DNA of 33,446 bases. Origin: Polyangium aurulentum (GTDB lineage Bacteria; Myxococcota_A; Polyangia; Polyangiales; Polyangiaceae). The DNA lies in contig CAMCKZ010000030.1 of the NCBI GenBank assembly GCA_945875545.1, positions 1-33,446 on the forward strand, written 5' to 3'. Of the stretch, positions 931-29,045 are shown in pieces (the first letter of the stretch is position 1; each line of letters begins with the position of its first letter). The notes under the pieces were generated by a model. That model saw only the letters and a program-made list of their open reading frames with translations, did no database searches and was not told where the DNA came from. The position numbers and the translations under genes were made by a program.

Positions 931-2355
931 ATGACGCCGAAGGAAGCGATCGAGCTTGGTAAGAAGCACAATGTTCAGTTTGTCGATCTGAAGTTCATCG
1001 ACTTTCCCGGGGTGTGGCAGCACACCACCATCCCCGCGTGGCGACTGGACGAAGACCTTTTTGAAGACGGCATTGGCTTCGACGGCTCCTCGATTCGCGG
1101 CTGGCAGCCCATCAACGCGAGCGACATGCTCATGATTCCTGATGCTTCGACGGCGAAGATCGATCCGTTTTACGAGCGCCCGACGATCACATTTGTGTGC
1201 ACTATACACGACCCGATCACGAAGCAAGAATACAGCCGCGATCCTCGTTATATCGCCAAGAAGGCCGAGGCTTACCTCAAGCAAACAGGCATCGGCGACA
1301 CGTGCTTTATGGGGCCCGAGGCCGAGTTTTTCGTCTTCGACAACGTGCGTTTTGATCACTCGCAAGCGAACGCGGGTTTCTACTTTCTCGACTCCAACGA
1401 AGGCATTTGGAACCAGGGCAAAGAGGGCACCGCCGAGAACCCAAACCTCGGTTACAAAATTCGCCACAAGGAGGGTTACTTCCCTGTCATGCCGACCGAC
1501 CAGCTCGCCAACTTGCGCATGGACATGATGGCCATGCTGCAAGAAACCGGCGTCACCGTGGAGGTTGGTCACCACGAGGTTGCAACCGGCGGTCAGTGCG
1601 AAATCGGCTGCAAATTTGCTTCGCTTCTCGTCGCCGCAGACCAGCTCGGTTGGTACAAATACGTGGTGCGAAACGTCGCTCGCAAACATGGCAAGTCGGT
1701 CACGTTTATGCCGAAGCCCCTCTTCGGCGACAACGGCAGCGGCATGCACGTGCACCAGTCGCTCTGGAAAGACGGCCAGCCCCTCTTTGGCGGCGACGGC
1801 TACGCGGGCCTGTCGGACATGGCGCGCTATTACATCGGCGGCATCATCAAACACGCGAAGTCTCTCGCGGCCCTCACCAACCCCACAACGAACAGCTACC
1901 GCCGGCTCGTTCCAGGTTTCGAGGCCCCGGTGAACCTCGCGTATTCGAGCCGCAATCGGTCCGCGTCCGTGCGCATTCCGATCTCCGGTCCGTCCCCCAA
2001 GGCGAAGCGTATTGAGGTGCGTTTTCCCGATCCATCTTGCAATCCGTACCTCGCGTTTTCGGCCATGCTCATGGCCGGCCTCGACGGCATTCAGAACAAG
2101 ACCGACCCGGGCGACCCCCTCGACAAAGACATCTACGCGCTGTCACCTGAAGAACTTCGCACCGTTCCGAAAATGCCCGGCAGCCTCGACGAGTCGCTCG
2201 CGGCTCTCGAAGAAGATCACGAGTACCTTCTTCGCGGCGGCGTCTTCACGAAAGATGCCCTCGACGAGTGGATCGAATTCAAGCGCACGCGCGAACTGAA
2301 TCCGATTCGCATGCGCCCAACGCCACACGAGTTTACGCTGTACTACGACATCTAG
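931..2355 (+). CDS. glnA: Glutamine synthetase, type I (GSI-beta)
   Basis: It catalyses ATP-dependent condensation of glutamate and ammonium to glutamine as a cytoplasmic dodecamer. The 474-aa length is normal for GSI. The start at 931 ([14 protein letters not shown]) follows a GAGAGAGA purine stretch; an in-frame ATG eight codons earlier would put that stretch inside the gene. Visible motifs are the beta-Grasp segment with FDGSS near 50, GPEAEFF near 130, the ATP-site [10 protein letters not shown] near 265-275, and NRSASVRIP near 350. The adenylylation loop reads [11 protein letters not shown] with Tyr402 in the place of E. coli Tyr397, so the enzyme should be controlled by GlnE-type adenylylation, consistent with the intact PII site upstream. 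No clear promoter was found in the 90-bp gap after glnB. Confidence 0.97.
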
Positions 2356-2537: not shown

Positions 2538-4271
2538 ATGCGCCGAGTAAGCCCATTGTTTGATGTTGTTCGCGATGCAACGGGGCGCGAGCTCCTTCAG
2601 GTCTATGTCGACGGCATCGAACTTCTTCGTCTCACCATGACGAACAAGGGAACCGCTTTTTCAATGGAGGAGCGTCGCGCGCTTCGCATCGACGGCCTGC
2701 TGCCGCCCAACGTGTCGACCCTCGACGAACAACTCGCGCTCGCCGTGGCGGCGTTTCGGCGCGCCCCCCTCGACCTCGACAAATACCAATTTCTACGCGC
2801 CTTGCAGGAGCGCCACGAGGTGCTATTCTACGCCCTCTTGGAGCGCAACCTCACAGAGGTTTTGCCCATCGTGTACACGCCCACCGTCGGCGAAGCGGTG
2901 CAAAAGTTCTCGCAAATTTACCAGTTTCCCCGCGGCCTCTCTTTCAGTCCGCGCAACATCGATCGCTCCGAAGAGGTCTGCCGAAACTTCCCCTGGGACG
3001 ACGTGCGCATGATCGTCGCGACCGACTCCTCGGCCATTCTTGGCATCGGCGATCAGGGCTACGGAGGCCTAGCGATCAGCATCGGAAAGCTTGCACTCTA
3101 CACGGCCGGCGGCGGCGTGAGCCCGATGCACACAGCCCCCGTGAGTCTCGATGTGGGCACGGAACGAACCGACCTTTTGGAAGACCCAGCCTACCTCGGC
3201 GTGCGGCACCGCCGACTGAAAGGCGAGGAATACATGGCCTTTTTCGACCGTTTCGTCGCGGGCGTCAAGGCGCGTTGGCCCAAGGCGATCATCCAATGGG
3301 AAGACCTCGCGAAGGAGTCGGCGTTCACGGTTCTTGAGCGGTACCGAAAGGTGCAGCCGAGTTTCAACGACGACATTCAGGGCACCGGAGCTGTCACGCT
3401 GGCCGGCGTTCTCGAGGCCTGCCGGCGTCGGGGCACCAAGTTTTCGAACGAGCGCATTCTCGTTTACGGTGCGGGCGCGGGCGGCATCGGCGTGACCTGG
3501 GCCCTGTGGATGGGGCTCCAACGCGAGGGACTGAGCCCAGAAGAGGCCGCATCGCGCATCTTCGTTCTCGATTCCAAGGGCCTTCTCACGGACGACCGCC
3601 CGATGGAAGATTACAAGAAACCCTACGCGCAAAAACGCGAGCGCTTGGAGGGCTGGAAGTTCGCGGGCACAAACCCCGACCTCCTCGAAACCGTGCAGAA
3701 TGCACGCATCACGACCATCATCGGGCTCTCGGGGCAAGCGGGCGCGTTCACCGAAGAGATCGTCCGCGCAGTCGCAAAAAACGTGGATCGGCCCACGGTT
3801 TTCGCACTCTCGAACCCCACGAGCATTTGCGAAGCCAACCCCGTCGACGTCATCGCGTGGACCGGCGGCAAGGCATTTGTCGCAACGGGCAGCCCGTTTC
3901 CCGCGGTCGAATACGGCGGTCAAACGATTCCGATTGGCCAGGGCAACAACGCCTTCATCTTCCCGGGCCTCGGCTTCGGCTGCATTCTGGCCGACGCCAA
4001 AGAGATCACCGACACCATGGTTCTCGAGGCCTCCTACGCGCTGGCCGAATACGTCGAGAAGCACCACGGCGAGTCGCTCTCGCTGTACCCCCCCGTCGAC
4101 GAGCTTCGCACCGTGAGCCTTGAGGTCGCGGCCCGAGTCATTCTTCAGGCGCAAAAAGACGGCGTGAGCCAGCGGCCTTCGCTGACGCTTGATGGCGCAC
4201 GTCAGCTTGCCAAGCAAAAAGCCTGGAAGGCCGAGTACTTGCCGATCGTCAGGGCCGAGCGTCGCCAGTAG
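2538..4271 (+). CDS. maeA: NAD-dependent malic enzyme (oxaloacetate-decarboxylating)
   Basis: It oxidatively decarboxylates L-malate to pyruvate and CO2 with NAD+, linking the TCA cycle to the pyruvate pool. The 577-aa length and unbroken family sequence fit the large MaeA/eukaryote-type class (about 565 aa) rather than the shorter MaeB. Visible motifs are LERNLTEVLPIVYTPTVGEA (about 96-115), the catalytic and metal region with ATDSSAILGIGDQGYGG (about 160-177), IQWEDLAKESAF, FNDDIQGTGAVTLAG (about 275-289), and the nucleotide-binding VYGAGAGGIG. The start at 2538 follows AGGAGA with good spacing; an in-frame ATG at 2508 would place the likely promoter and ribosome site inside the gene. Two dispersed 11-mers lie in the coding region (3092 and 3694). 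The convergent neighbour is separated by the repeat array at 4277-4398. Confidence 0.95.
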   Translation: MRRVSPLFDVVRDATGRELLQVYVDGIELLRLTMTNKGTAFSMEERRALRIDGLLPPNVSTLDEQLALAVAAFRRAPLDLDKYQFLRALQERHEVLFYALLERNLTEVLPIVYTPTVGEAVQKFSQIYQFPRGLSFSPRNIDRSEEVCRNFPWDDVRMIVATDSSAILGIGDQGYGGLAISIGKLALYTAGGGVSPMHTAPVSLDVGTERTDLLEDPAYLGVRHRRLKGEEYMAFFDRFVAGVKARWPKAIIQWEDLAKESAFTVLERYRKVQPSFNDDIQGTGAVTLAGVLEACRRRGTKFSNERILVYGAGAGGIGVTWALWMGLQREGLSPEEAASRIFVLDSKGLLTDDRPMEDYKKPYAQKRERLEGWKFAGTNPDLLETVQNARITTIIGLSGQAGAFTEEIVRAVAKNVDRPTVFALSNPTSICEANPVDVIAWTGGKAFVATGSPFPAVEYGGQTIPIGQGNNAFIFPGLGFGCILADAKEITDTMVLEASYALAEYVEKHHGESLSLYPPVDELRTVSLEVAARVILQAQKDGVSQRPSLTLDGARQLAKQKAWKAEYLPIVRAERRQ

Positions 4272-4276
4272 GCGTT

Positions 4277-4398
4277 GGCTGCAGTGTGCATGCGTGTAGT
4301 CTGCATCGAGTGACGCATGCGATGTAGTTTACATCGAATGACGTATGCGTGAGGTCTACAGAGATCCGCGCATACGTGTAGGATGCATCTACATTGCT
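4277..4398. repeat. Degenerate 27-28-bp tandem array carrying the dispersed 11-mer
   Basis: The convergent intergenic space between the malic enzyme and cytochrome-type genes is almost entirely repeat. Units start with TGCGT/TGCGA/TACGT and end near GACGCA: 4291-4317 (27 bp), 4318-4345 (28 bp), 4346-4372 (27 bp), and a partial unit from 4373. Each unit has the 11-mer at the same place: TGTAGTCTGCA (4295), TGTAGTTTACA (4323, inside the palindrome GATGTA-GTT-TACATC), the decayed TGAGGTCTACA (4350), and TGTAGGATGCA (4377). One more, TGCAGTGTGCA, precedes them at 4280. The array is much more AT-rich than its surroundings. It may act as a bidirectional end-of-operon structure or as a protein-binding array; both are inference. 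Confidence 0.85.
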
Positions 4399-5601: not shown

Positions 5602-6920
5602 CAGGATGCCTCGATCGCGGTGAGCCGGTCCGACGATTTTGCGGTGTCGAGACCGTAGTCGGCGCGGCGCAGGCCCATGGCGTTCACCAGGGTCAGCATG
5701 ACGCGGCTCGCGTTGTCTTCGGTGGTGGACTTGATGTGCAGGCCGGTCTTCAAAAAGCCTCCGCCCTTGCCCGCAACGATGAGCGGGTAGTTGTTCAGCT
5801 GGTGCGTACGACCAAAACCACAATCGGTCGTACCGAGTATGACGCAATTATCGAGGAGGGTGCCGCTGCCTTCTGGGATCGCCTTGAGGGCACCGAGAAG
5901 GTAGGCAAATTCCTGCATAATCGTGAGAATAATCCCGTGCACGTTGGGCTGGTTTCCGGCCTCGTCGTGGGTGAGTTGGTGGTGGCCGGCGCTCGCGGTG
6001 CCGATCAAAATGTCGGCGAGGGGCTGGGTGAACATGTCGAAAAAGACCCGCGTCTGATCGCACGCCAAGGCCATCGCGAGAAGATCGCTCATGGCGCGGC
6101 TCACGGCGCTGAGCTGTTGGCGGCCCGCAACATCGGTGTAGTCTGCAAGTGGTGCGTTCGGCAGTGCGCAGGCCGCGAGGGAGACCGGCGAGGCTTCCAA
6201 ACGGGCAATCTGGCGTTCGAGGGAACGCACGCCCTCCAAATGCTGCTCGATGCGGGCTCTGTCGCTCGCGCCGAGGCGCGCCTTGAGCGCGGTCGATTGG
6301 GCCAGCACGCCGTCGAGAACGCTGCGGCGAAGGGGCAGGCGAGGGTCGGGGCCGGTGGTGGCGTTGGGGTCGCGAAAGTCTTCGCCGAAGAGGCGATCGA
6401 AGAGCCTCGCGGGGCTCGTCTCGATGGGATTCATCTGCGTTGGGCTCGCGTAGGAAAGGCTGCGCGTGCTGCGTTGAACCCCGAACTCCAAGGAGCGAAA
6501 ACGCGTTTCGCCGCCAAGTTCTTTTGCAATAACCTGGTCGACGGTCGGTGCAACATACATGTCGGTTCGCAGGGCGGCGCCCGTGAGAAGGCCCGCGGGC
6601 CCGGCGCCGTGAGGTCGGTCGTTTTTCACGTTGACCTTGAAGCCCGTGATGACGTTGATGTCGGCCTTGTGCGCCGCAAGAGGCGCGAGCTGCTCGGACA
6701 ACTGCCAATTCGTGCCCTCGCCGGTCGGTGCCCAGCGATCGGGAATGACGCCGTTGCCCCAGAAGAAGACGCCGAAGCGCTTGGGGAAGGGCGTTCCGTT
6801 CGCGTAGGCGGTGCCAGACGCGTTCATGAAGGCTTCGAGGGGTGGGAGGGCCACCGAGACGGCGGCGCCGCCTACGAGGCCCCTGAGCACGGTGCGGCGG
6901 TCGAGTTTGAAGTTAGGCAT
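5601..6920 (-). CDS. DUF1552 family protein, Tat-exported
   Basis: This 439-aa protein belongs to the DUF1552 family, which is usually found beside DUF1592/DUF1588 proteins in Planctomycetes and myxobacteria and has no established function. The start at 6920 gives MPNFKLDRRTVLRG, a twin-arginine motif (Arg8-Arg9) followed by a hydrophobic segment to about residue 30, so folded export by Tat is likely. Family hallmarks are FGVFFWGNGVIPDRWAP near 45-61, GPAGLLTG near 100, SLEFGVQRSTRSLSYASP, and the C-terminal TDCGFGRTHQLNNYPLIVAGKGGG. This last part recalls sulfatase/alkaline phosphatase-like DUF1501 and DUF1552 proteins. It starts 5 bp after the DUF1592 gene stops and overlaps the next gene by 1 bp. 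Two dispersed 11-mers lie in it (6137, 6549). Confidence 0.88.
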   Translation of the reverse strand: MPNFKLDRRTVLRGLVGGAAVSVALPPLEAFMNASGTAYANGTPFPKRFGVFFWGNGVIPDRWAPTGEGTNWQLSEQLAPLAAHKADINVITGFKVNVKNDRPHGAGPAGLLTGAALRTDMYVAPTVDQVIAKELGGETRFRSLEFGVQRSTRSLSYASPTQMNPIETSPARLFDRLFGEDFRDPNATTGPDPRLPLRRSVLDGVLAQSTALKARLGASDRARIEQHLEGVRSLERQIARLEASPVSLAACALPNAPLADYTDVAGRQQLSAVSRAMSDLLAMALACDQTRVFFDMFTQPLADILIGTASAGHHQLTHDEAGNQPNVHGIILTIMQEFAYLLGALKAIPEGSGTLLDNCVILGTTDCGFGRTHQLNNYPLIVAGKGGGFLKTGLHIKSTTEDNASRVMLTLVNAMGLRRADYGLDTAKSSDRLTAIEAS

Positions 6921-11458: not shown

Positions 11459-11994
11459 TGGCAATCGAAATCGAACGCAAGTTTCTCGTCCGCGCGCAGG
11501 CGTGGGAACGCGCGCACGCGGGCGTGGCAGGTACGCGTTTTCGTCAAGGCTACCTTTCCACCGAGGCCAATCGCACGGTCCGCGTGCGCGTCGCCGGCGG
11601 CGAAGCGTGGCTCACGATCAAGGGTGAACCCCAGGGAAAAGCCAGGCTTTCGCGCTTGGAGTTCGAGTACGAAATACCCGTGCAAGATGCACATATTCTC
11701 CTCGACGAGCTCGCGACGGGAATCGTCATCGACAAGGTGCGCCGCGTTCTCGACGTCGGCGGAACCGTGTGGGAGCTCGATGAATTTCACGGAGCCAACG
11801 CGGGTCTTCTCGTCGCGGAAGTTGAACTCGCCGCCGAGGATGCCCCATTCGTCAAACCCGATTGGCTCGGTGACGAAGTCTCCGCCGACGCACGATTTGC
11901 AAACTCGCGCCTGTCGTCGGTGCCATTTTCCGAATGGACCGCCGTCGACAAAGAGCGCGTTCGCCTAGGAATTGCCCCGGATTTGCCCGGGTAA
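11458..11994 (+). CDS. CYTH-domain protein (triphosphate tunnel metalloenzyme)
   Basis: This 178-aa protein has the compact bacterial TTM architecture, whose members hydrolyse inorganic triphosphate or related triphosphates in a beta-barrel tunnel with Mg2+. The hallmark EIERKFLV at residues 4-11 holds the ExExK motif. Further tunnel residues are in TVRVRV, LTIKG, RLEFEYEIP, WELDEFHG, LLVAEVEL and the C-terminal RFANSRLS. The start is forced: ATG at 11458 gives the canonical N-terminus, and reading upstream in frame through the tRNA there is no ATG, GTG or TTG before a TAG at 11389-11391. No Shine-Dalgarno is visible because that sequence is the tRNA T-arm and acceptor stem. One dispersed 11-mer (11681) lies inside. 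The precise substrate (PPPi, thiamine-PPP or ATP cyclisation) is not predictable. Confidence 0.9.
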   Translation: MAIEIERKFLVRAQAWERAHAGVAGTRFRQGYLSTEANRTVRVRVAGGEAWLTIKGEPQGKARLSRLEFEYEIPVQDAHILLDELATGIVIDKVRRVLDVGGTVWELDEFHGANAGLLVAEVELAAEDAPFVKPDWLGDEVSADARFANSRLSSVPFSEWTAVDKERVRLGIAPDLPG

Positions 11995-12094: not shown

Positions 12095-14113
12095 ATGCCT
12101 ATGCGCCGTGCCTTTCATTTGGTTGTGCTCCAAGCCCTGGCCACCCTTGGCTCCCTCGCCGCGGGGGCCGCGACCTTCGACGCGCGCGGCATTTTTGCGT
12201 TCGATAAACGTGCAGTCTACACGATTGGCTTCGACGGCGGCGACGAGGTAACCGGTGTAGTCTACAAAGAAGATGAGACGGCGCTGCAAGGCAAAGGCTA
12301 TGCGCGGGTGACCTCGTCGGGTTACCGATCGAGCGACATCCCCGTGAAGCTTCCCGCAGCAAAAGCACGGTACCGCGCGGCCATGTGGGCGCGAAACAAC
12401 CGCGTGGTGGCCGACATTTCCGTGGAGTACCTGGGGCAAACAGGGGCGGGTTCCCCGAGCCACGCAGCGCGATTCTTTCCGACGGGCCGCGTGACGAGCG
12501 ACGGTTGGTACGAAGTGGCCACCGCCCCCTTCACTGTGGACGGAACACGTAAACACGAAACTGTATTGTCTCTGTATGCCTCTGGTGCCGACCTCGACGG
12601 TTTGGAGTTCGTCGAAGAGGGAACTTTTCGCGAGGCCGCTGTGTGCCAAGGCCGGAGCACCAGCACGTGCGGCGATGGCGAATTTTGCGCCGGCGGGTAT
12701 TGCCGAAATGGCAATGAGGGCGTTCCAGCGCTGCCCAATGAAGATGACCGGGTGCACCTCGCCAACTACTTGGCGTGGCGTCTCAAGGCGTTTTTCGGAG
12801 GTCGATTGACCAGGGAAAACACTATGCCCCAAGCTCTTTCATCGCTGCAAACGATGAAGACCGCCACCTCCGGGTGGGCGTACTGGAACGGCTATGCAAC
12901 GGCTATTCACCGGCTGCGTGACTGGCATACGACCATCAGTGGCCCCGTCGAAGTAGCGGGCCGCGGCGCGTTTCCGTTTTGCGTCGACGAAGCCGTCGCC
13001 GATGCGTCGCGGGCGCAGGCACCTTCGACCGCTGGCCTCCTCGATGTGATCATCACGGCGGCGGGCCCCGAGGGCAATTCGGGGCTCAAGGTCGGCGACC
13101 GAATCGTGGCGATCGACGGGCGGCATCCCATTCAATGGGCCGAAAGTTTCGACGACCTTTACTGGGGCTACTGGCGCGCCGACGACCCCGACGCGCACGC
13201 CGAAGGGCTTGAGCGGCTTCGCTTTATGGTGAGGCGCTGGGCCACGGAACTCACGGTTATTCGCTGCGATTCCGCGACCGGCGTCTGCGGTCCCCTCGAG
13301 CGCCTCGCGGTGAAAGACCTCCCAACGGCGGAACCCAGCGTGTACCCCGTCTGCGACCATCGGCCGTTTTATCACTTCGTCACGGGAGGGCCCGATCCGG
13401 TGACGCACTACCCGTCGCGAAGCGATCAGGGCATCTCCCTCGGACCCATTCGCGAAAACGTGCAGAGTGAAAGCATTTACACGATGGTCTGGGACAGCGT
13501 GATGATGGACAACCCGGACGACAACCCCTACGCGGCACCCATGACGACCCTGCGCGGAAACGCCTCCGCGGTGATTCTTGACCACCGAACCGGCAACGGC
13601 GGAACGGAGCCCGCGGCGGAGTTTTTGACGCAGCTTTTTCGCCGGCCAGCGATCCTCGGCGTGTCGTCGGGCTTCAATGGAACCGTGGGTTTTTTCGACG
13701 CACCGTACACGGCGGCGCATGGCCAGGCGCTGGTTTCCCGGTTGCACGATTCCGACGACGCGTTCGCCGTCGGGGCCAACGACGCCCGCGACACAATGCG
13801 AACGGCGGTGCTCCTGGCGCGCGACGGAAGTGCGAGCGACTGGTGGCCCGAGGGCATGAAAAACGGCGGCGCCAACATTCGCCTTTTTGGGCGACGCACG
13901 GCCGGGGCGTTCTCGTCGTTTTTTCAGTTCGACTACTTCGGAGGCATGAGCTGGCAGTTTGCCTCCGGCGAATACGTGCGCCCCGACGGCACGACCCACA
14001 TCGGTGAGGGCGTTCGTCCCGATGAAGACATTTCGCCGACCCAATCGGACCTCCTCGCAGGCCGAGACACCGTTTACCTGCGCGCCCTTGATTGGGTTCG
14101 CACCGGCCTCTGA
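12095..14113 (+). CDS. Secreted S41-family (C-terminal processing) peptidase-like protein with PDZ
   Basis: This 672-aa exported protein has a signal sequence after either Met1 or Met3 (MRRAFHLVVLQALATLGSLA); the ATG at 12101 is an equally good start. Residues about 30-180 look like a carbohydrate-binding-type beta sandwich. A short disulfide-rich knot follows from Cys184 (CQGR..CGDGEFCAGGYC). A PDZ-like segment with GLKVGDRIVAIDG lies near 330-342. The S41 core starts about residue 485 with AVILDHRTGNGGT, the counterpart of the family's DLRGNGGG. Ser579/Ser581 in DGSASD are nucleophile candidates. The Lys expected about 25 residues later in Tsp/CtpA is missing: the matching segment reads GRRTAGAFSS, closer to tricorn/IRBP-type S41. 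It may be an atypical protease or a non-catalytic binding protein. Two 11-mers lie near the 5' end (12211, 12256). Confidence 0.75.
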   Translation: MPMRRAFHLVVLQALATLGSLAAGAATFDARGIFAFDKRAVYTIGFDGGDEVTGVVYKEDETALQGKGYARVTSSGYRSSDIPVKLPAAKARYRAAMWARNNRVVADISVEYLGQTGAGSPSHAARFFPTGRVTSDGWYEVATAPFTVDGTRKHETVLSLYASGADLDGLEFVEEGTFREAAVCQGRSTSTCGDGEFCAGGYCRNGNEGVPALPNEDDRVHLANYLAWRLKAFFGGRLTRENTMPQALSSLQTMKTATSGWAYWNGYATAIHRLRDWHTTISGPVEVAGRGAFPFCVDEAVADASRAQAPSTAGLLDVIITAAGPEGNSGLKVGDRIVAIDGRHPIQWAESFDDLYWGYWRADDPDAHAEGLERLRFMVRRWATELTVIRCDSATGVCGPLERLAVKDLPTAEPSVYPVCDHRPFYHFVTGGPDPVTHYPSRSDQGISLGPIRENVQSESIYTMVWDSVMMDNPDDNPYAAPMTTLRGNASAVILDHRTGNGGTEPAAEFLTQLFRRPAILGVSSGFNGTVGFFDAPYTAAHGQALVSRLHDSDDAFAVGANDARDTMRTAVLLARDGSASDWWPEGMKNGGANIRLFGRRTAGAFSSFFQFDYFGGMSWQFASGEYVRPDGTTHIGEGVRPDEDISPTQSDLLAGRDTVYLRALDWVRTGL

Positions 14114-15056: not shown

Positions 15057-16292
15057 ATGACCGACCTTGCCCATCGTCTGCACCATCCGCTGCCCGAGCT
15101 TGTGCCGGCGTCGAAGACCCTGGCCGACATCGATGGCCTTCGGGCAGCGGGCGTGCGCGCGGGGATCAAGGCGAGCGGGAATCCCGACGTGGGCCTGCTC
15201 GTGGCAAACGGGCTCGTCGATGTAGCTGCAGTCTTCACGCAAAATAGATTCGCCGCCGCGCCCGTTCTCGTGTGCCGCGAACATCTGAAGAAGAGTGGAG
15301 GTCGGGCGCGGGCCATTGTCGTCAACTCAGGAAATGCGAACGCGTGCACCGGCGATGATGGCTTGCAGAATGCACGGATCATGTGCGCGGACGTCGCAAA
15401 ACTCGTGGGCTGCGCCCCGGAGCACGTGCTTGTGGCGAGCACCGGCGTCATCGGCGTGCCTTTGCCCATGGCGAAAATTCGTGCGGGAATTATTGAGTCA
15501 TTTCAATCGCTTGATGCAGGTGAGCGCGCAGGTCGAGCCTTTCTGAGCGCCATCCAAACGACCGACGCCTACCCCAAAGAAGCGGCCGAGGTCGCGGACG
15601 ATTGGTCTGTGGCCGGCGTGTGCAAGGGCGCGGGAATGATCGCCCCAAACATGGCCACGATGTTGGCGTTTCTTGCGACCGATGCACCGGTGAATGCATG
15701 CAATCTGCAGGCACTTCTCGCGGCTGCCGCCACAGCCTCGTTCAACGCGGTTCACGTCGACTCCCACGCGTCCACGAACGACTCCCTCTTTCTCATCGCC
15801 ACGCGCGGCGAGTCAGGGCATCGCGCGCATGGGGTGGAGCCTGGGTTTTTCCTCGCTTTGGAGAGAACGTGTCGGCGCCTCGCGTGGCTCATCGCCCGGG
15901 ACGGCGAGGGTGCCACGAAGGTCACGACCATCAAGGTGTCCGGCGCTTCGTCCCATGAGGCGGCGCAGGCCATCGCTCGCCGCGTGGCCGAATCGGCTCT
16001 CGTGCGCACGGCTCTCTTCGGCAACGATCCGAACTGGGGCCGTTTTGTGAGCCAAGTGGGCAACGCGAAAGAGGTCGCAAGTGTGGCGGGCCTTCGCTGC
16101 CGCGTGCAGGGAATTACCGTGTTTGAGAACGATTCGCCCACGACTTTCGACCGCGCAGCCGCAAGCCAAGCGATGGCAAAAGAAGATGTGCTGCTCGAAC
16201 TCGAGCTCACGGAAGGCGCGGGCGAAGGCGTGATTCTGACGAGCGATCTCGGGTACCGCTACGTTGAAGTCAATGCAGAATACACGAGCTAG
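15057..16292 (+). CDS. argJ: Bifunctional glutamate N-acetyltransferase / ornithine acetyltransferase
   Basis: It transfers the acetyl group from N-acetylornithine to glutamate, running the cyclic arginine pathway, and may also start it from acetyl-CoA. The 411-aa length is typical. AGVRAGIK and VFTQNRFAAAPV open the protein, and VVNSGNANACTG lies near 90-101. The self-cleavage site is in KGAGMIAPNMATML, with Thr201 as N-terminal nucleophile of the beta chain. HVDSHASTNDS and FGNDPNWGRF are the substrate-site signatures, and the C-terminus VEVNAEYTS is family-like. The autocatalytic alpha/beta split is expected from family knowledge. No other arg gene is in the window. Three 11-mers occur here, each in a different codon phase (15364, 15699, 16274). 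Confidence 0.97.
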   Translation: MTDLAHRLHHPLPELVPASKTLADIDGLRAAGVRAGIKASGNPDVGLLVANGLVDVAAVFTQNRFAAAPVLVCREHLKKSGGRARAIVVNSGNANACTGDDGLQNARIMCADVAKLVGCAPEHVLVASTGVIGVPLPMAKIRAGIIESFQSLDAGERAGRAFLSAIQTTDAYPKEAAEVADDWSVAGVCKGAGMIAPNMATMLAFLATDAPVNACNLQALLAAAATASFNAVHVDSHASTNDSLFLIATRGESGHRAHGVEPGFFLALERTCRRLAWLIARDGEGATKVTTIKVSGASSHEAAQAIARRVAESALVRTALFGNDPNWGRFVSQVGNAKEVASVAGLRCRVQGITVFENDSPTTFDRAAASQAMAKEDVLLELELTEGAGEGVILTSDLGYRYVEVNAEYTS

Positions 16293-16636: not shown

Positions 16637-18436
16637 TCACTTTTTAACGGCGGTCGCTTGCTTCACGCGCGCGAGAAGAATCTTCGCTTGGAGCATCAGC
16701 GGTTCGGGAACGGTGGGCCCGAGTTTCTCGAAAAACTCGATGCTCGACGTGAGTTCGCGATCCCATTCGCCGAGGTCGATTCGCGTGGCTTTCGCCAGCT
16801 TTTCTTCAGACAAATCGAGACCGGTAAGATCGAGATCGGCGTCTTTTGGTACCCAGCCCAAGAGCGTTTCTTGCGCGCCGACCTTGCCTCGCGCGCGGTC
16901 GACGATCCACTTCAGAACGCGCATGTTGTCGCCGAAACCAGGCCACAAAAACTTGCCGTCTTCGTCTTGGCGAAACCAGTTGACCATAAAGATTTTTGGC
17001 GGGAACGGGATGCTGTGCTGCATCTCCAGCCAGTGGCTGAAATAGTTGCCCATGTCGTAGCCACAGAAAGGCAACATCGCCATGGGGTCGCGGCGCACAA
17101 CGCCAACCTGGCCGACGGCCGCGGCGGTGGTTTCGCTGCCGAGGGTGGCGCCAAAAAAGACGCCGTGCAGCCAGTTGAAAGACTGGATGACGAGAGGCAC
17201 CGTCGTGGCGCGACGGCCTCCGAAAATGATCGCGCTGATCGGCACGCCGCGCGGATCTTCGCAGTGAATGCTCACGGCCGGATTGTTCTGCGCGGGGGCG
17301 GTAAAACGTGCGTTTGGATGCGCAGCTTTTTCCGTTGAGCCCTTCTTCCACGGGCGCCCTTGCCAATCGGTCAGCTCGTCGGGCACTTCGCCGTCCATGC
17401 CTTCCCACCACACGCCGCCGTCTTTCGTGAGCGCCACGTTCGTGAACAGCGTGTCGCGCATCACGGTCTTCATGGCGTTGGGGTTCGACGCATTGCTCGT
17501 TCCCGGTGCCACACCGAAGTACCCGGCCTCGGGATTGATCGCGTAGAGCTTGCCGTCGGGGCCAACACGCATCCAAGAAATGTCGTCGCCGACCGTCCAA
17601 ATCTTCCAGCCGGCAAAGCGCTTGGGCGGAATCATCATCGCGAAGTTGGTCTTGCCGCAGGCGCTCGGAAATGCCGCCGCCACGTAGGTTGTTTCGCCCT
17701 CTGGTGACTCGATTCCGAGAATGAGCATGTGCTCCGCGAGCCAGCCTTCTTGCTGGCCCAAATAGCTTCCGATGCGGAGCGCCAGGCACTTTTTACCGAG
17801 GAGCACATTGCCGCCGTAACCGCTGCCCACGGACCAAATGGTGTTGTCTTGCGGAAAGTGGCAAATGAATCGGCGATCCGGATTGCAATCGAGCACCGAG
17901 TGCAGCCCGCGATTGAAGTCGTTGGAGTCGCCGAGCATGTCGAGGGCGGCCTTGCCCATGCGGGTCATGATCCGCATATTGAGTGCAACATACACGCTGT
18001 CGGTTAGCTCGATGCCGACCTTGCTCATAGGCGAGCCCAGAGGCCCCATGACGTAAGGCACGACGTACATGGTGCGGCCGGTCATTGAGCCGTCGAAGAG
18101 CGCGCCAAGCTTCGCGTAGGCGTCTTGCGGGGCCATCCAGTTGTTCATCGGCCCAGCCTCGACTTTGGTCGGCGTGCAGATGAACGTGAGCTGCTCAACG
18201 CGCGCGACGTCGTTGGAATTCGAGCGGTGGTAGTAGCAGTTGGGCCACCGCTCTTGATTCAGCGGAATCAGCGTTCCATCGGAGACGGCGAGTTCCGTGA
18301 GGCGGCGTTTCTCATCTTCGGAGCCGTCGCACCACACGACGTGGTCGGGCTTCGTGAGGGCCGCAAGCTCCCTCACCCAGGCGAGGAGATTCGCGTTTTT
18401 GGTCAGTGTCGTCGCGGAAAGGGCTTCATTCGACAT
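16637..18436 (-). CDS. pckG: Phosphoenolpyruvate carboxykinase (GTP)
   Basis: It converts oxaloacetate plus GTP to phosphoenolpyruvate, GDP and CO2, the entry of gluconeogenesis. The 599-aa length is that of the GTP class. The N-terminal part has [11 protein letters not shown] near 32-42. [24 protein letters not shown] is a family-specific stretch. The P-loop FPSACGKTN carries the reactive Cys260 followed by GKT. The metal and nucleotide regions include [35 protein letters not shown] and GYNMG-like [12 protein letters not shown]. Together with the malic enzyme in this window it covers the PEP-pyruvate-oxaloacetate node. The neighbour upstream is divergent (154-bp gap, presumably with both promoters). 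One 11-mer (17984) lies inside, with the same sequence and phase as the one at 6549 in the DUF1552 gene. Confidence 0.97.
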
Positions 18437-19286: not shown

Positions 19287-20204
19287 ATGCAGAATGCACG
19301 CACATCATCGCCGAGCCGAGAGCTCGCGCTCGTAGGACTTGCGGCGCTCGTATTTGCGACCAGTGGGCCTGTCGCAAAACTCATTGGAACGATCCATCCG
19401 CTCGCCGTCGCTTCGGGTCGCACGGGCCTTGCGGCGCTCGGTCTGATGCTCTGGGACGGGCCCCGAATCGTTCGTGTGTGGCGTGGCGCGACCCGCTCTG
19501 ACGTGTGGAAGGGCCTCGCCGCCGGAGTGCTTCTCGCCTGCCATTTTGCTGCCTATTTGTGGGGACTGGCGACAACCTCGCTGGCCGCGGCTTCCGCGCT
19601 CATCTCCCTCGAACCGGTCGCGGTGCTCGCGGTGGCGGCCCTCGTGCAGGGGCTTCATCCGCGCGCGACGGAGGTCGTGGGGGTCATCGTCGCGACGGTG
19701 GGCGCGGGCATCGTGAGTTCGGCGGCCGGCGATGGTGACCACCGGCTCGTCGGCGATTTGCTCGTGGTCGCGTCGGTATTTCTTTACGGTTTCTACGTGG
19801 CCGTGGCCCGGGAAGTTCGCCCCGAAATGGAGGGAAGACCATACGCAGCCTTTGTATATGTGATAGCAAGCCTTGTGATACTGCCAGTATTACCATTCGT
19901 AGACGGGGCATTGCGGGCCCCATCGGCACGCGACAGCTTCGCGGTGCTCGTTCTCGCGCTCTTTCCGACCCTCGTCGGCCACACCCTCGTTCAGCGGGCG
20001 GCGAGTCGTGTGCGGCCTGCGGTGCTGGCCTTGGTGTCGCCCGGCGAGACCATTGGGAGCATTGCCATTGGAGCCTTCATGCTTCGAATGCCTCCGTCGT
20101 TGCGCGAGGGTATCGGCATCGCGGTGGTGCTCCTGGGGACGACGCTGGCGGCGAGCGCGGGCCACGAAAACGAGGAGATGAGGGCCGATCCAGGCGGCTC
20201 CTAA
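19287..20204 (+). CDS. EamA/DMT-family membrane transporter
   Basis: This 305-aa inner-membrane protein has about ten predicted transmembrane helices in two homologous halves, as in drug/metabolite transporters of the EamA family (RhaT/YdcZ-like). Half one contains LAALVFATSGPVAKLIG and GRTGLAALGLMLW; the end of its helix 4 is SLAAASALISLEPVAVLAVAA, the characteristic EamA end of repeat. Half two ends with LALVSPGETIGSIAIGAFML and GIGIAVVLLGTTLAA, the same pattern. Substrate is unknown; the family exports amino acids, nucleotides or metabolites. The start codon lies in a copy of the dispersed 11-mer: the gene opens ATG-CAG-AAT-GCA, with the motif at 19288-19298. There is no intergenic base between the preceding TAG and this ATG. 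Confidence 0.88.
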   Translation: MQNARTSSPSRELALVGLAALVFATSGPVAKLIGTIHPLAVASGRTGLAALGLMLWDGPRIVRVWRGATRSDVWKGLAAGVLLACHFAAYLWGLATTSLAAASALISLEPVAVLAVAALVQGLHPRATEVVGVIVATVGAGIVSSAAGDGDHRLVGDLLVVASVFLYGFYVAVAREVRPEMEGRPYAAFVYVIASLVILPVLPFVDGALRAPSARDSFAVLVLALFPTLVGHTLVQRAASRVRPAVLALVSPGETIGSIAIGAFMLRMPPSLREGIGIAVVLLGTTLAASAGHENEEMRADPGGS

Positions 20205-20243: not shown

Positions 20244-21851
20244 ATGGCAGCCCCGATTCTTGGCTTTAACCGCGCGCGTCCGGGGCTCGTCGATGAGACC
20301 GTGCGGCGCGTCGTGCTTGGCACCAAAGATCCCGTGTTCTCCCTCAACGACGCGGCTTTTTGCGAGGTGCGCAGACTTCAATCCGGGGGTTCATCGCGCG
20401 ACGGCGAACTCGCCGCGTGGCGTGACCTCGCGCGAAAAGTGGGGCGGCTCGGGCCCGCCGATCTGACGAAGAGTCTTGAGTCGGTGGCCCGCATGCACGC
20501 GGAAGATGTGGCCGGCAATTTCGACGAGCGGGTCTACAAAATCGCGTCCAAGGCGGCCGCTCCCCTCATCAACGCCCTGCTGTCGCCGCGAACGCTCTTT
20601 CAGGATTTCAAGGGAGCTTTCGACCTCCGAGCGCTGGATGGTCGGGTTGTCGTCGAGGGTCCGACCGAGCAGCTCCGTCGCCTGGCTGAAATCGGAACGC
20701 TCTGCTTCGTGCCCACGCATCTTTCAAATTTTGACTCGGTGGTTTTTGGCTTTGCGCTCGAGCGCGCGGGCCTCCCGCCGGCAACGTACGGGGCCGGAAA
20801 GAACCTCTTCACGAACCCCGCGCTCTCGTTCTTCATGCAGAACCTCGGCGCGTACAAGGTCGATCGCCGGCTTAAACATGCACTCTACAAAGATGTCCTC
20901 AAGACCTATTCGAGTGTCCTGATCGAGCGCGGATTTCACAGTCTGTTCTTTCCTGGCGGCACCCGATCACGCAGTGGAGGCATCGAACGGCGCCTCAAGC
21001 TTGGCCTTGCGGGCACCGGGGTCGAGGCCTTCCAGAACTCCGCCCTCGCCGGAAATCCTCGCCGCGTATTCTTCGTTCCCGCGACCATCAACTACATGCT
21101 CACGCTGGAGGCCGAGAGCCTCATCGACGAGTTTTTGCAGGAATCCGGCAAGGCTCGGTACATTCTCCAAGACGACGACGACGAGTCAACGCGCGTCTCC
21201 AGGATCGCCGCGTTCGTTCGCAAACTGGCCATGCACGACGCCGGCGTCGTTATTCGCTTTTCTCGCCCCCTCGACGTGGTCGGCAACTTTGTCGACGAGC
21301 AAGGCGATTCCCTCGACCCCGCGGGCCGTCCTTTCGATCCCGTCGGGTATCTGCAGAGTGCACGCACCGGCAAGGTGGTAGCCGACGACGTAAGAAATGC
21401 AGAATACACGCGTCAGTTGGGCGACTCGATTTGCGAGAGTTACCTCCGCGACACCGTTTTTCTGCCGACGCATTTGGTGGCCGCGGCAGCCTTCGCGTAC
21501 GTGCACGAGGTGCTCGGAAAGGGCGATTTGTTTGCCCTTTTGCGCCACGAAGACGACGTAAAAGTGCCTCGCGCGGAGCTTGCCCGCCGCGTCGAAGAGT
21601 TGCGCGATCGGGCCGCCGTGTTGGCCAAAGCGGGCAAAGTTCGCCTGGCCCCGAGTCTCTTGATCGACGACGGCGCGGGCATTCTTGCGGCGGGTCTCAA
21701 GGGTTTTGGCGGGTACCACGAGCACCCGGTCATCGGGCAGCAGGGCCAAGACCTCCTGCTCTCGGATACGCGGCTACTTTTCTATTACCAAAATCGCCTT
21801 GTGGCCCACGGGCTCGCTTTCGACGCGTCAAGTTCGTCCGTGCGCATCTGA
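20244..21851 (+). CDS. Glycerol-3-phosphate/lysophosphatidate acyltransferase (PlsB/PlsC superfamily)
   Basis: It probably transfers a fatty acyl chain to glycerol-3-phosphate or a lysophospholipid at the cytoplasmic membrane. The 535-aa protein shows the superfamily blocks in order: block I HLSNFD with catalytic His159 and Asp164 (HX4D); block II GAGKNLFTNPALSFFM; block III FFPGGTRSRSG (from about 235), binding the glycerol-phosphate; and block IV VFFVPATINY. This resembles the PlsB-like N-acyltransferase group more than the small PlsC proteins (about 250 aa). The N-terminal 140 residues and the C-terminal 200 residues are helical and less conserved. It follows the transporter gene by 39 bp. 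Three 11-mers lie inside (20879, 21352, 21398), the last two only 35 bp apart and in different codon phases. Confidence 0.85.
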   Translation: MAAPILGFNRARPGLVDETVRRVVLGTKDPVFSLNDAAFCEVRRLQSGGSSRDGELAAWRDLARKVGRLGPADLTKSLESVARMHAEDVAGNFDERVYKIASKAAAPLINALLSPRTLFQDFKGAFDLRALDGRVVVEGPTEQLRRLAEIGTLCFVPTHLSNFDSVVFGFALERAGLPPATYGAGKNLFTNPALSFFMQNLGAYKVDRRLKHALYKDVLKTYSSVLIERGFHSLFFPGGTRSRSGGIERRLKLGLAGTGVEAFQNSALAGNPRRVFFVPATINYMLTLEAESLIDEFLQESGKARYILQDDDDESTRVSRIAAFVRKLAMHDAGVVIRFSRPLDVVGNFVDEQGDSLDPAGRPFDPVGYLQSARTGKVVADDVRNAEYTRQLGDSICESYLRDTVFLPTHLVAAAAFAYVHEVLGKGDLFALLRHEDDVKVPRAELARRVEELRDRAAVLAKAGKVRLAPSLLIDDGAGILAAGLKGFGGYHEHPVIGQQGQDLLLSDTRLLFYYQNRLVAHGLAFDASSSSVRI

Positions 21852-24182: not shown

Positions 24183-24195
24183 CCTCGCGGTCGGT

Positions 24196-24299
24196 GATGC
24201 GCGAGGCTGACGCGCGAGGCTGACGCGCGAGGCTGACGCGCGAGGCTGATGCGCGAGGCTGACACGCGAGGCTGACACGCGAGGCTGACACGCGAGGCT
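24196..24299. repeat. 13-bp tandem repeat, eight units
   Basis: Eight uninterrupted 13-bp units of the form GAYRCGCGAGGCT run from 24196 to 24299. Units 1 and 5 start GATGC, units 2-4 GACGC and units 6-8 GACAC. The block structure (ATGC, CGC x3, ATGC, ACAC x3) suggests expansion by slippage with spread of variants. It lies between the terminator of the S1 gene and the ComFB gene, and is not coding. Copy number is likely variable between strains. Confidence 0.95.
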
Positions 24300-24384
24300 G
24301 CGGAAAAGTGTGGAAATTTGCACGGGATCACGAATCATCCCCGTGTCAAGTCAAGATGGGCTAGGCTGCCCGACGGAGACGCGC

Positions 24385-24767: not shown

Positions 24768-25799
24768 GTGCCAGCCATTATTGAGGTCACCAATCCCTTC
24801 GGAAATCTCGTCGCGAGCGTCGACGACGATGGCAACACTCTTTACCTTTACGTGCATCATGCACAGTTTCGCGAGTGGGGATTTCGTCCGCTCTGGCTAG
24901 CGAATAAACCCGTCGACGCGGGCGTTGCGCCGGGGCAGGCACCGCGACTACCTGTAGACTGCACGGATCATCCCGCGGGGCACGAGGGCCTCCACGCGAA
25001 AGATCTGGAGGTCGTGTGGACGCCGGCGGGCGACGGCGTGTTTCTCTTCCACCAAGGTCAGTTGCTCGCGCACCTGCCTGGCGTCGACGACACCCTCGGA
25101 AGTCCGGGATTTTCCAGGCATTCCACGGTCAAAGAGCGGTTCGCATGGCCCCTCCGTTACGGGCCCGAAGACCTCGCGATTCGGGGTGCCAGCGCGCGCG
25201 TTTTTTGGGCCGAGGTTCGCTCGCCCGAGGCTTGGGAGCGGACGCGCGATGCGGTGCTCGGCGCAGGAAAGACGGCGTTCGGCCCTCACGAGGCCTACTG
25301 GGCGATCGAGGAGAGCCGGTGGCCGTCGCTGGGCGTGGCGCGGTACGCATACGGCGAAAACGCGGTCTTCACCACGGTCGGAATGAGCCTTCCACGCATG
25401 CCCGCGCCCACCGATTTCGGGTGTGATCGCGCGGAGATAGCCTTTGCCGTGAGCGGGTTCGGTCGTCCGGAAGACGGCGGATGGTGCGTGCAGACTGCAG
25501 GTTGGCTCGGGCGATACCCGTGGAGCTTTTACACGCCCCTCGAAGACGGCGCGCTCATCATGGCGCCCACGGCTCACGCCCGCTGGTTTGCCCCCGACAG
25601 CTCCGCGGCGATGCTGCTCGACGACCCGGGCGCGTGGTTCGAGAGTGCGCCGCCGCGCATCGATGCGCCCGCGGGCGTGAGGCTCTTGTGGGCCATTTTT
25701 CTGAGCGCCGACGAAGTGAAGTTGATCGAACTTCTGGGCCGCGAGCTGCTGCGCCAGCGCCACCGCGAAAGCGGCCGCAATGTCGTTTTCGCGTGCTGA
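24768..25799 (+). CDS. Uncharacterised protein, possibly SUFU-like C-terminal domain
   Basis: This 343-aa soluble protein has no signal peptide and starts with GTG at 24768, with AAAGG about 7 bases upstream. The N-terminal 110 residues are beta-rich (EVTNPFGNLVASVDDDGNTLYLYV) and may bind something through the H-rich stretch DCTDHPAGHEGLH. The C-terminal 200 residues resemble bacterial suppressor-of-fused-type domains: a WPSLGVARYAYGENAVFTTVGMS strand pair, then RAEIAFAVSGFGRPEDGGW and ending with a helix LSADEVKLIELLGRELL. In bacteria such domains often serve as immunity proteins or stand alone; no toxin is next to it. I regard the SUFU assignment as a guess from pattern. Three 11-mers lie inside (24853, 24953, 25489). 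Confidence 0.6.
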   Translation: MPAIIEVTNPFGNLVASVDDDGNTLYLYVHHAQFREWGFRPLWLANKPVDAGVAPGQAPRLPVDCTDHPAGHEGLHAKDLEVVWTPAGDGVFLFHQGQLLAHLPGVDDTLGSPGFSRHSTVKERFAWPLRYGPEDLAIRGASARVFWAEVRSPEAWERTRDAVLGAGKTAFGPHEAYWAIEESRWPSLGVARYAYGENAVFTTVGMSLPRMPAPTDFGCDRAEIAFAVSGFGRPEDGGWCVQTAGWLGRYPWSFYTPLEDGALIMAPTAHARWFAPDSSAAMLLDDPGAWFESAPPRIDAPAGVRLLWAIFLSADEVKLIELLGRELLRQRHRESGRNVVFAC

Positions 25800-25866: not shown

Positions 25867-27912
25867 ATGACCTCACTCTGCGTGTCCCTTTCGGAAGCCC
25901 TCCCGGGCCTTGATGTTCGCGACGGTGAGGCCGATCGCCTTTCGTACTCCCGCGATCTTTGGCCGCGCCATCACTTGGCCGTGCGCGCCGGCAATGTGGC
26001 GCCGTCGAAACCTGCGGCAATTGCCTGGCCTCGAAGCACCGAAGAGACCGCGGCTCTTGTCTCATGGTGCGCCGAGCGCGGCGTAGCAATGGTGCCATTT
26101 GGGGCCGGCAGCGGCGTGTGTGGGGCCATTTTGCCGGGCCAAGATGCGCTCGTAATAGATGTAAAGCGCATGGATAAATTTCGACGCATCGATCGCGATG
26201 CGCGCGTTGTCGATGTCGAAACTGGGTACATGGGCGTGCCCTTCGAGGAGCGACTGGGCCGCGCTGGACTGACGCTCGGTCACTTTCCGTCGTCGATTTT
26301 GTGCAGCACCGTCGGAGGGTGGATCGCCGGGCGCGGAGCGGGCCAGTGTTCGGGTTATTACGGGAAAATCGAAGACATGGTCGTCGGCCTCGAGGTCGTC
26401 ACGGGCAAGGGCGAGGTGGTGCAAGCGCGGGCCCGGGCCCATGGCGCATCTCTCGTGCCGCTTCTCATTGGCAGCGAGGGCACGCTCGGCATTCTCACGA
26501 GCGCGACGCTACGCGTGCATCCTGCACCCATTACGCGGGCGCTTGCCTCGTGGTCGTTTCGCACGACCGAAGAGGCGTGGGAGGGCATGCGCGAAATATT
26601 CCAATTGGGCCTTCGTCCGGCGGTGCTTCGTCTGTACGATCCCTTCGATGCGATGCTCGCGCGCATGGGCGCGGTGAAGAAGCCAAAAGTGAGCAAAAAT
26701 GCTGGCAGCGACGACGACGGTGTGATCCCCGGAATGGGCGCATCGGTCCTCCGCACGATGCTCCAACAGCCGGCGATTTTTAACGAATTGGTCGACAGCA
26801 AATGGGGCGGCATGGCTCTCGGTGGCGCCCTCGTCGTTGCCGTTTGGGAGGGCGTTGGGGAGCGGCCTTCGCGCGAGCTTTCCGCGGCCCGCCGCATCAT
26901 GGAGCGCATGAAGGGCCGCTACGATGGCGAAGGTCCCGCGGCGCGTTGGCTGGCGCATCGCTATTCGGTTTCGTACCGTCAGGCGCCGGTGCTTCGGAGC
27001 GGCCTTTTCGTCGATACTTTTGAGGTCGCGGCCCCGTGGTCGAAGCTCGGCGCGCTGTACGATGGCGTGCGCGAGGCCGTGCGCGGCAAGGCATTCATCA
27101 TGGCCCATATGAGCCACGCGTACCCCGATGGGTGCTGCATTTATTTCTCCTTCGCGGGCAGTGCGGGCCCAGGAAATGCACCGTGGGATGAGCGCTGCGA
27201 GGAGCGTTACGACGCCATTTGGCTCGCGGCGATGCAGGCGGCCAACCGCGCCGGGGCGACCGTTGCGCATCACCACGGCGTGGGTCGATCCAAGGCCCCC
27301 GCACTGCGCGCAGAACTCGGAGCGGGCGTCGACGTGATTCGCGCGGTGATGAAGGCGATGGACCCGGGCCAAGTTTTCAACCCGGGAAACTTGCAGAGTA
27401 CAAAGACCATGGGCGGGTCGCAGGAGCTTCAGCCGCCGGCCCGAGGTGTGGCCATCGACGTCGCGAGTCTCTTGGCGCATGCCGCCGGCGAGACGACCGT
27501 TTCAGCGGTCGAAGAAGCTCTGCACGCCGAAGGGCTTACCCTGGGTTTTGACACCTTTCCGAAGGCCGACGTGACCGTTCGCGCGTTCATCGACGGCGGC
27601 CTTGGCGGTGCCCGCGACCGTTGGCACGACCCGGTCGATCAAGATGTCGCGGGGTACATGGCGCGCACGCCTCAGGGCAAACTCGTGACCTACGCGCCGG
27701 GGCCGCGTCGTGCGGCGGGCCCCGATCTTTTTGGCATTGTGCGCGGTGCCAAGGGCAAATACCTCCAGGTGGAACATGCGTGGCTTCGCGCTCACCGCAT
27801 CGGGGTCGAGCGCCCCACAGCGCCGCACGCGCACTTCGATCGAGACCCGGCGATTACGCGAGAAGAGGCGGCGATTCTCGATGGCATCGCGGTCTCGGTG
27901 GCGCGCACGTAA
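25867..27912 (+). CDS. FAD-binding oxidase, alkyl-DHAP-synthase-like, with C-terminal extension
   Basis: This 681-aa flavoprotein belongs to the vanillyl-alcohol-oxidase fold. The FAD domain spans about residues 48-225, with PFGAGSGVCGA near 78-88, VDVETGYMGV, TVGGWIAGRGAGQCSGYYGKIEDMV, and LLIGSEGTLGILT. The cap domain follows and ends with HHHGVGRSKAP and DPGQVFNPGNL (residue about 508). The HHHGVG motif is typical of alkyldihydroxyacetonephosphate synthase, which makes ether lipids, known in myxobacteria; D-lactate or glycolate dehydrogenase is the alternative. Residues 509-681 are unusual: after a linker they read like the front part of a second, decayed FAD domain (VAGYMARTPQGKLVTYAPGP, LFGIVRGAKGKYLQVEHAWL). 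Two 11-mers lie in the gene (26516, 27392). It starts 67 bp after the preceding gene. Confidence 0.82.
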   Translation: MTSLCVSLSEALPGLDVRDGEADRLSYSRDLWPRHHLAVRAGNVAPSKPAAIAWPRSTEETAALVSWCAERGVAMVPFGAGSGVCGAILPGQDALVIDVKRMDKFRRIDRDARVVDVETGYMGVPFEERLGRAGLTLGHFPSSILCSTVGGWIAGRGAGQCSGYYGKIEDMVVGLEVVTGKGEVVQARARAHGASLVPLLIGSEGTLGILTSATLRVHPAPITRALASWSFRTTEEAWEGMREIFQLGLRPAVLRLYDPFDAMLARMGAVKKPKVSKNAGSDDDGVIPGMGASVLRTMLQQPAIFNELVDSKWGGMALGGALVVAVWEGVGERPSRELSAARRIMERMKGRYDGEGPAARWLAHRYSVSYRQAPVLRSGLFVDTFEVAAPWSKLGALYDGVREAVRGKAFIMAHMSHAYPDGCCIYFSFAGSAGPGNAPWDERCEERYDAIWLAAMQAANRAGATVAHHHGVGRSKAPALRAELGAGVDVIRAVMKAMDPGQVFNPGNLQSTKTMGGSQELQPPARGVAIDVASLLAHAAGETTVSAVEEALHAEGLTLGFDTFPKADVTVRAFIDGGLGGARDRWHDPVDQDVAGYMARTPQGKLVTYAPGPRRAAGPDLFGIVRGAKGKYLQVEHAWLRAHRIGVERPTAPHAHFDRDPAITREEAAILDGIAVSVART

Positions 27913-28058: not shown

Positions 28059-29045
28059 ATGCGGCTTTTTTCTTTCTCTGTTTTTCCGCAGTTTCTTGGG
28101 GCGTGTCTCGCAGCGGGTTGCACGACCCCCGCTTCGTCGAATGGCGCGGGCAACCCAGAACCCTGTGCCTTCGGAGACTGCCCTTCTAGCGACGGTGGGC
28201 CGTCGCCGGTCGATGGATCACGAGGCGACGGGGCGGTGGTTGCACCGCGCGATGCGGCCGTCGCTGACACGGGGCCTTCTGGTGCCGTTATCAACTGGGA
28301 CGGCTCGCGTCCGCCCTACGACGGCGCGGTTCCGGTGCGCGACGCGGCGTGGGAAGATGGCGGCGTCGTTGGGCCAGGCGGGCCCGTATTGCCCGGCGAT
28401 CCCCCGAACCGCGCGATATGCTCAAACGCTGGCCCCTTGGGTTTTTCCACACAAACGCTCACGGCAACGTCGCTTCCTCGCGGCAGCACAGACCCGATCA
28501 CGGCCCCGTGGGCTACCGCGGCGCAGCGCACCGGCGCGCCGGGTCCAGCGCTGATTCTCGTCGACAACTTGGGCATCTTGCCCGCCGGGGGTATTCGCGC
28601 GGTGCGTGTCGGAGCGCCGCGCAGCACCGGTGGATCGAGCCCATTCGGATTCTTGCAGATTGCAAACAATCCGGTGGCGACAAATTGGTCGCTCACAAAT
28701 ATGTACGGAGTAGCGGCCGATACAACCGCGAGCACGATGCCCGCAGGCACGTTGCGTTTGAAGGCTGCGTCCGGCGCGAACGTCGATATTCCGTTCGTTG
28801 CGGTCAAGCTCGATGGCCGTTTCGTCATCGAGCAAACGAGCGAGGCGTGCACGCATTTGCAGGTCGGCAGTCTCGCGTTTTTCATCGCTGAGAGTGCGGG
28901 CACCACGCTTCTCGAAGGGCAAGCCTTGAGCACTCTCTTGGGCACACGAACGTTCACTCTTGGCACACCCGCGGGCACCACCACGTATTGGCGCATCACG
29001 CTGAGCGGGGCAGCTCCGGTCGTTTCTCTTCAGGCATCTCCATGA
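28059..29045 (+). CDS. Lipoprotein A of the A-B-A'-B' operon
   Basis: Function unknown. It is a 328-aa lipoprotein: MRLFSFSVFPQFLGACLAAGC gives a lipobox with Cys21, preceded by a GAGGG ribosome site about 5-10 bases upstream. Residues 25-130 form an Asp/Gly/Pro-rich linker with the recognisable segment WDGSRPPYDGAVPVRDAAW followed by GPGGP. A beta-rich domain fills residues about 140-328 (PGPALILVDNLG, ASGANVDIPFV, LEGQALSTLLG, WRITLSGAAPVVSL). The protein downstream at 30802 has exactly the same length and shares all these segments, so the two are paralogues. The stop codon overlaps the next start by four bases (ATGA). It is probably surface-exposed by analogy with other linker-rich myxobacterial lipoproteins; this is inference. 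Confidence 0.8.
   Translation: MRLFSFSVFPQFLGACLAAGCTTPASSNGAGNPEPCAFGDCPSSDGGPSPVDGSRGDGAVVAPRDAAVADTGPSGAVINWDGSRPPYDGAVPVRDAAWEDGGVVGPGGPVLPGDPPNRAICSNAGPLGFSTQTLTATSLPRGSTDPITAPWATAAQRTGAPGPALILVDNLGILPAGGIRAVRVGAPRSTGGSSPFGFLQIANNPVATNWSLTNMYGVAADTTASTMPAGTLRLKAASGANVDIPFVAVKLDGRFVIEQTSEACTHLQVGSLAFFIAESAGTTLLEGQALSTLLGTRTFTLGTPAGTTTYWRITLSGAAPVVSLQASP

Follow-up and report, generated by a model that had tools for sequence, protein, structure and literature searches.

The 127-bp gap downstream of the malic enzyme gene in the window (the whole 33,446-nucleotide stretch analyzed here, contig C30 of the Polyangium aurulentum draft genome, G000) holds a dense local cluster of a palindrome, TGYA-N3-TRCA, that recurs throughout the genome. 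The array is a species-level feature at the kind of place where such sites collect. We consider it about an even chance that these sites are bound by a putative homodimeric DNA-binding protein acting chromosome-wide, the array being a local cluster of its targets.

The gap is bounded on the left by the malic enzyme gene and on the right by an open reading frame whose product has no Pfam match and which PSD/PSCyt genes adjoin. Five motif copies lie inside it with spacings of 15, 28, 27 and 27 bp, and TRF reports a repeat at 4288-4360 with a period of 28 and 2.7 copies. The features of the gap are as follows (sites and gap carry no strand).

4272..4398, convergent intergenic gap, 127 bp, between gene calls ending at 4271 (+ strand, malic enzyme) and 4399 (- strand)
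4280..4290, array site TGCAGTGTGCA, PWM score 15.9
4295..4305, array site TGTAGTCTGCA, PWM score 20.8
4323..4333, array site TGTAGTTTACA, PWM score 15.2, inside the 17-bp palindrome
4321-4337, 17-bp palindrome CGATGTAGTTTACATCG (CGATGTA-GTT-TACATCG), seen in the sequence
4350..4360, array site TGAGGTCTACA, degenerate, PWM score 10.2
4377..4387, array site TGTAGGATGCA, PWM score 19.4

A sequence-only reading of this DNA had pointed out four 27-28-bp units (4291, 4318, 4346 and 4373) that each carry the motif, another copy at 4280 and a longer palindrome at 4323; we confirm five copies (cores at 4280, 4295, 4323, 4350 and 4377) and the palindrome, and the spacing holds for the last four copies. 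Its description of tandem units stands as far as the 28-bp period goes, but the similarity between units falls mostly within the 21-bp extended motif defined below, with agreement at only 0-3 of 6 positions outside it (best for the pair 4295/4323). The term tandem repeat would therefore mostly mean neighboring sites here, perhaps with one local duplication (4295/4323).

The array alone might still be a chance local duplication without function beyond that of its single sites, an account that we regard as doubtful but possible and that is compatible with the best explanation of the motif itself. It would fit the sequence that units 4295 and 4323 share outside the motif, as well as the corresponding gap of the sister species (G002, a metagenome-assembled genome), which contains a single site and no array. 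Against it stand the other clusters, with different spacings, that also occupy convergent gaps (L019, L027, L028, L050 and L052), indicating that clustering at such places recurs independently. The single site of the G002 gap adjoins a strong intrinsic terminator (L039 2520-2580), and the window has no such terminator there.

Motif counts, apart from those given for the whole genome or the window, were made in a sample of 833 kb (24%) of the 3.52-Mb draft. Exact TGYA and TRCA cores separated by three nucleotides occur 439 times in this sample, whereas any of the other spacings between 0 and 12 yields 4-60, and extrapolation gives about 1,850 sites per genome. The strict form GTGYANNNTRCAC is found 376 times genome-wide compared with 13 for the reversed control, and the window contains 23 matches to TGTAGNCTACA when up to two mismatches are allowed, against 2.8 +/- 1.5 for shuffled sequence. 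The dispersed 11-mer described earlier is thus real as a dispersed motif, but it is one form of a broader and longer element of about 21 bp, ATnCG-TGYA-KWM-TRCA-CGnAT. The logo is symmetric, the symmetrized counts carrying information out to +/-10 in the order A, T, n, C/G, G, TGYA, G/T and an A/T center, followed by the mirror image. Text searches of the literature, whose coverage was incomplete, gave no relevant match to a description of this motif. A smaller excess is seen for TGYA-N7-TRCA, which may represent overlapping sites or a second motif; the sample has 60 of these, 10 of them in convergent gaps, where other spacings give roughly 4-31.

The scatter of sites is nearly random (variance of 16 against a mean of 12.5 per 20 kb), and we dropped the idea of one site per gene, as counts per gene are near Poisson. 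Three 20-kb stretches are site-poor, holding 3, 3 and 5 sites (L043, L049 and L048, on G000 contigs C19, C25 and C24, respectively), and are possibly recently acquired DNA. The dispersed sites of the window are listed below; they come from a motif scan, combined with alignment where the sister species is mentioned, and carry no strand.

1198..1208, site in coding sequence (glutamine synthetase)
3092..3102, site in the malic enzyme gene, intact in G002 (sister species)
3694..3704, site in the malic enzyme gene, absent in G002 (sister species)
6137..6147, dispersed site
6549..6559, dispersed site
11681..11691, dispersed site, conserved in sister
12211..12221, dispersed site
12256..12266, dispersed site TGTAGTCTACA, perfect 11-mer palindrome
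15364..15374, dispersed site, conserved in sister
15699..15709, dispersed site
16274..16284, dispersed site
17984..17994, dispersed site
19288..19298, dispersed site
20879..20889, dispersed site, conserved in sister
21352..21362, dispersed site
21398..21408, dispersed site
24853..24863, dispersed site, all 23 bp identical in sister
24953..24963, dispersed site
25489..25499, dispersed site
26516..26526, dispersed site, conserved in sister
27392..27402, dispersed site, conserved in sister
28654..28664, dispersed site, conserved in sister
29380..29390, dispersed site, conserved in sister
30923..30933, dispersed site
31593..31603, dispersed site, all 23 bp identical in sister

The window also contains a 13-bp tandem repeat unrelated to the palindrome, TGACGCGCGAGGC, with 8.2 copies at 95% matches (24195-24300), in the gap that follows a gene with its end at 24124. 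At its start (13-840), a PII-family nitrogen regulator lies immediately upstream of glutamine synthetase; the long reading frame from 13 has a long N-terminal extension, and the codon-model caller starts the gene at 499.

Conservation was assessed by alignment to same-genus genomes at 76% identity, with figures given in the own direction because conserved own and sister sites overlap. Fully kept sites amount to 20 of the 35 ungapped own sites (57%) versus 18.8% of random control columns, indicating that the motif sites are held by selection, in agreement with what had been proposed from the array alone. Third codon positions within the core are 72.8% identical compared with a background of 53.6%, so the constraint on the core acts at the DNA level. 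At intact sites, conservation extends to positions 6, 7 and 9 but not to 8, 10 and 11. At sites missing from the sister, identity drops at the informative columns only, and the center and +/-9 remain at background. It follows from the latter pattern that sites are gained by substitution, and block replacement or the insertion of a unit is ruled out as their origin. Spread of single motifs from the array, as had been suggested, is excluded on the same grounds, and sites in coding DNA lack the flanks of the array.

One-mismatch cores are not in excess at N3 (361 versus 416-499 at spacings 0, 6, 9 and 12, which share the codon register), although about a quarter of them have strong flanks compared with 5% of random positions, which suggests that some are real variant sites. 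These counts bear on the possibility that the motif is a DNA uptake sequence, preferred by competent cells and driven to high copy number by transformation. Such a drive predicts a surplus of mismatched forms (PMC1939737), and its absence argues against this scenario, as do the palindromic, symmetric logo, which is unlike the uptake sequences known so far, and a ComEC that is present in this genome but equally so in relatives without the motif. We consider uptake rather unlikely, even if the copy number, the lineage restriction and an excess in unconstrained convergent gaps would all fit it.

This excess emerged from gene calls made with a simple codon model (G002 with the own-genome model), which are approximate. 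Coding sequence contains 383 of the 439 sites (~87%), near its share of the sequence, and the densities per kb in the own sample are 0.51 for coding sequence and 0.63, 2.35 and 0.14 for tandem, convergent and divergent gaps, respectively. Relative to a circular-shift null, convergent gaps are enriched (28 sites versus 6.6 +/- 2.7) and divergent gaps depleted (5 versus 13.7 +/- 3.6). The convergent excess is repeated in G002 (2.08 versus 0.38 per kb in coding sequence), and convergent density is likewise higher in other genera, with small counts, whereas the divergent depletion was not reproduced in G002 (0.62 versus 0.38 per kb in coding sequence). A protein-level repeat is an unlikely cause of the motif because codon phases 1 and 2 are used equally (177/183).

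Sites at most 30 bp apart are somewhat over-represented in the 833-kb sample (17 gaps versus 10.3 +/- 3.1). Within this 24% of the genome, it is mainly convergent gaps that hold the intergenic clusters, and the array of the window is the largest seen. No other 27-28-bp array of at least three copies turned up there, the other clusters having spacings of 11, 16, 26 and 29 bp. One 51-bp convergent gap has three sites (L052 3236-3278) with an exact 16-bp spacing and common flanks.

The distribution also weighs on two further accounts. If a global regulator of transcription of the conventional type used the sites as operators, a dimer-type palindrome would be expected, and large regulons exist in myxobacteria, with ~1,600 peaks for MrpC; MrpC peaks, however, are biased to non-coding promoter regions (PMC4320627). 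Since ~87% of the present sites are intragenic and the own genome has fewer sites in divergent gaps than expected, we judge this account decidedly improbable. The second account, an RNA hairpin, terminator or REP/BIME-like 3'-end element, would agree with the convergent-gap enrichment and with the folding of the array, which is better than that of shuffles on both strands (z of -3.6 and -3.2). However, across 438 sites all tested positions of the two arms vary independently except for the central pair, which matches less than expected; the array has no T-tract, and most sites are coding. This absence of compensatory pairing argues against an RNA hairpin, which we reject; the whole class of explanations appears extremely improbable, and the suggested role of the array in termination finds no support.

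Independent arms are, instead, as expected for two protein monomers. Weak centers also tend to be offset by strong flanks, as an affinity threshold would predict (rho -0.175, p 2e-4). Compensation is only partial, because a T in the arms goes together with weaker flanks, not stronger ones. In a general sense, the earlier suggestion of a multimeric protein-binding site is borne out by the symmetric logo, the conservation of sites and their extra density in convergent gaps. In the homodimer reading that we prefer, one monomer would bind each arm and make flank contacts about one turn away, and the protein would have an architectural or marking (nucleoid-associated) role over the whole chromosome instead of regulating specific promoters. 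Sites would arise by point substitutions and then be kept by selection, building up best between gene 3' ends, where binding would disturb least, and the cluster would have formed there.

Three families were considered as readers of the motif. Lrp/AsnC proteins are excluded by the absence of PF01037 matches in G000, G001, G002, G013, G027 and G030, and BlaI/MecI proteins by the absence of PF03965 matches in G000, G001, G002 and G013, with the proviso in both cases that draft genomes can miss genes. GntR, with one gene each in G000, G001 and G002, is very unlikely as it is missing from the motif-bearing G027 (a 99% complete draft).

Among 290 genomes of the class, motif enrichment is confined to ~14 genera of the family to which the window belongs, probably Polyangiaceae (Myxococcota). 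The remaining genera of this family do not rise beyond the level of the reversed control or close to it, and the ~200 genomes sampled outside it show no motif excess and are likewise at or near this control. Eight genomes (the own genome, G002, G013, G030, G154, G027, G026 and G279) gave the same logo, its flanks being informative out to +/-10. Lineage specificity is shared with HIP1, the GCGATCGC palindrome of cyanobacteria, which has been proposed to accumulate by the action of a DNA methyltransferase together with methyl-directed repair, and similar copy number, palindromy and mostly coding location extend the likeness (PMC4390886). An equivalent process acting here is unlikely: two N6/N4 methyltransferase matches occur in the genome, and the same in both same-genus genomes, but methyltransferases of that Pfam family are present in each of the 60 family genomes, whether or not it bears the motif, and ~21 bp of information with graded flanks and a degenerate Y do not resemble a methyltransferase site.

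More tentatively than for dimer binding as such, we propose an undescribed family-specific system in which a putative homodimer on ~1,850 selected sites, with clusters between convergent genes, would organize or tag the chromosome. Motifs repeated throughout a genome and maintained by selection within coding sequence are rare, and the function of the best known one, HIP1, is still open. A lineage-restricted example with a dimer-type logo would offer direct bait for finding the reader, and motif-bearing and motif-free genera within one family provide a natural contrast for function.

Compared with known systems, the element qualifies as a highly iterated palindrome by its strong genome-wide over-representation and mostly intragenic location. 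Like HIP1, it is restricted to a single lineage and occurs at about 0.5-1 per kb; it is not HIP1 proper, as its sequence differs from the contiguous 8-mer GCGATCGC, spans ~21 bp with graded flanks and an N3 center, and is enriched between convergent genes. It resembles the uptake sequences of Pasteurellaceae and Neisseriaceae in its copy number, in showing selection or drive across many loci and in a relative surplus in less-constrained non-coding DNA, but it is palindromic and its near-miss sites are not in excess. REP/BIME elements are also palindromes clustered between convergent genes, whereas 383 of 439 sites here lie in coding sequence rather than extragenically, and the arms do not covary. 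Nucleoid-protein sites (matS/MatP, Myxococcus CdbA and Streptomyces Gbn) are similarly many, spread over the chromosome, intragenic and not promoter-centered. Among them, matS is a different and rare sequence. The myxobacterial nucleoid protein CdbA uses a direct repeat, in contrast to the palindrome described here (PMC7156744).
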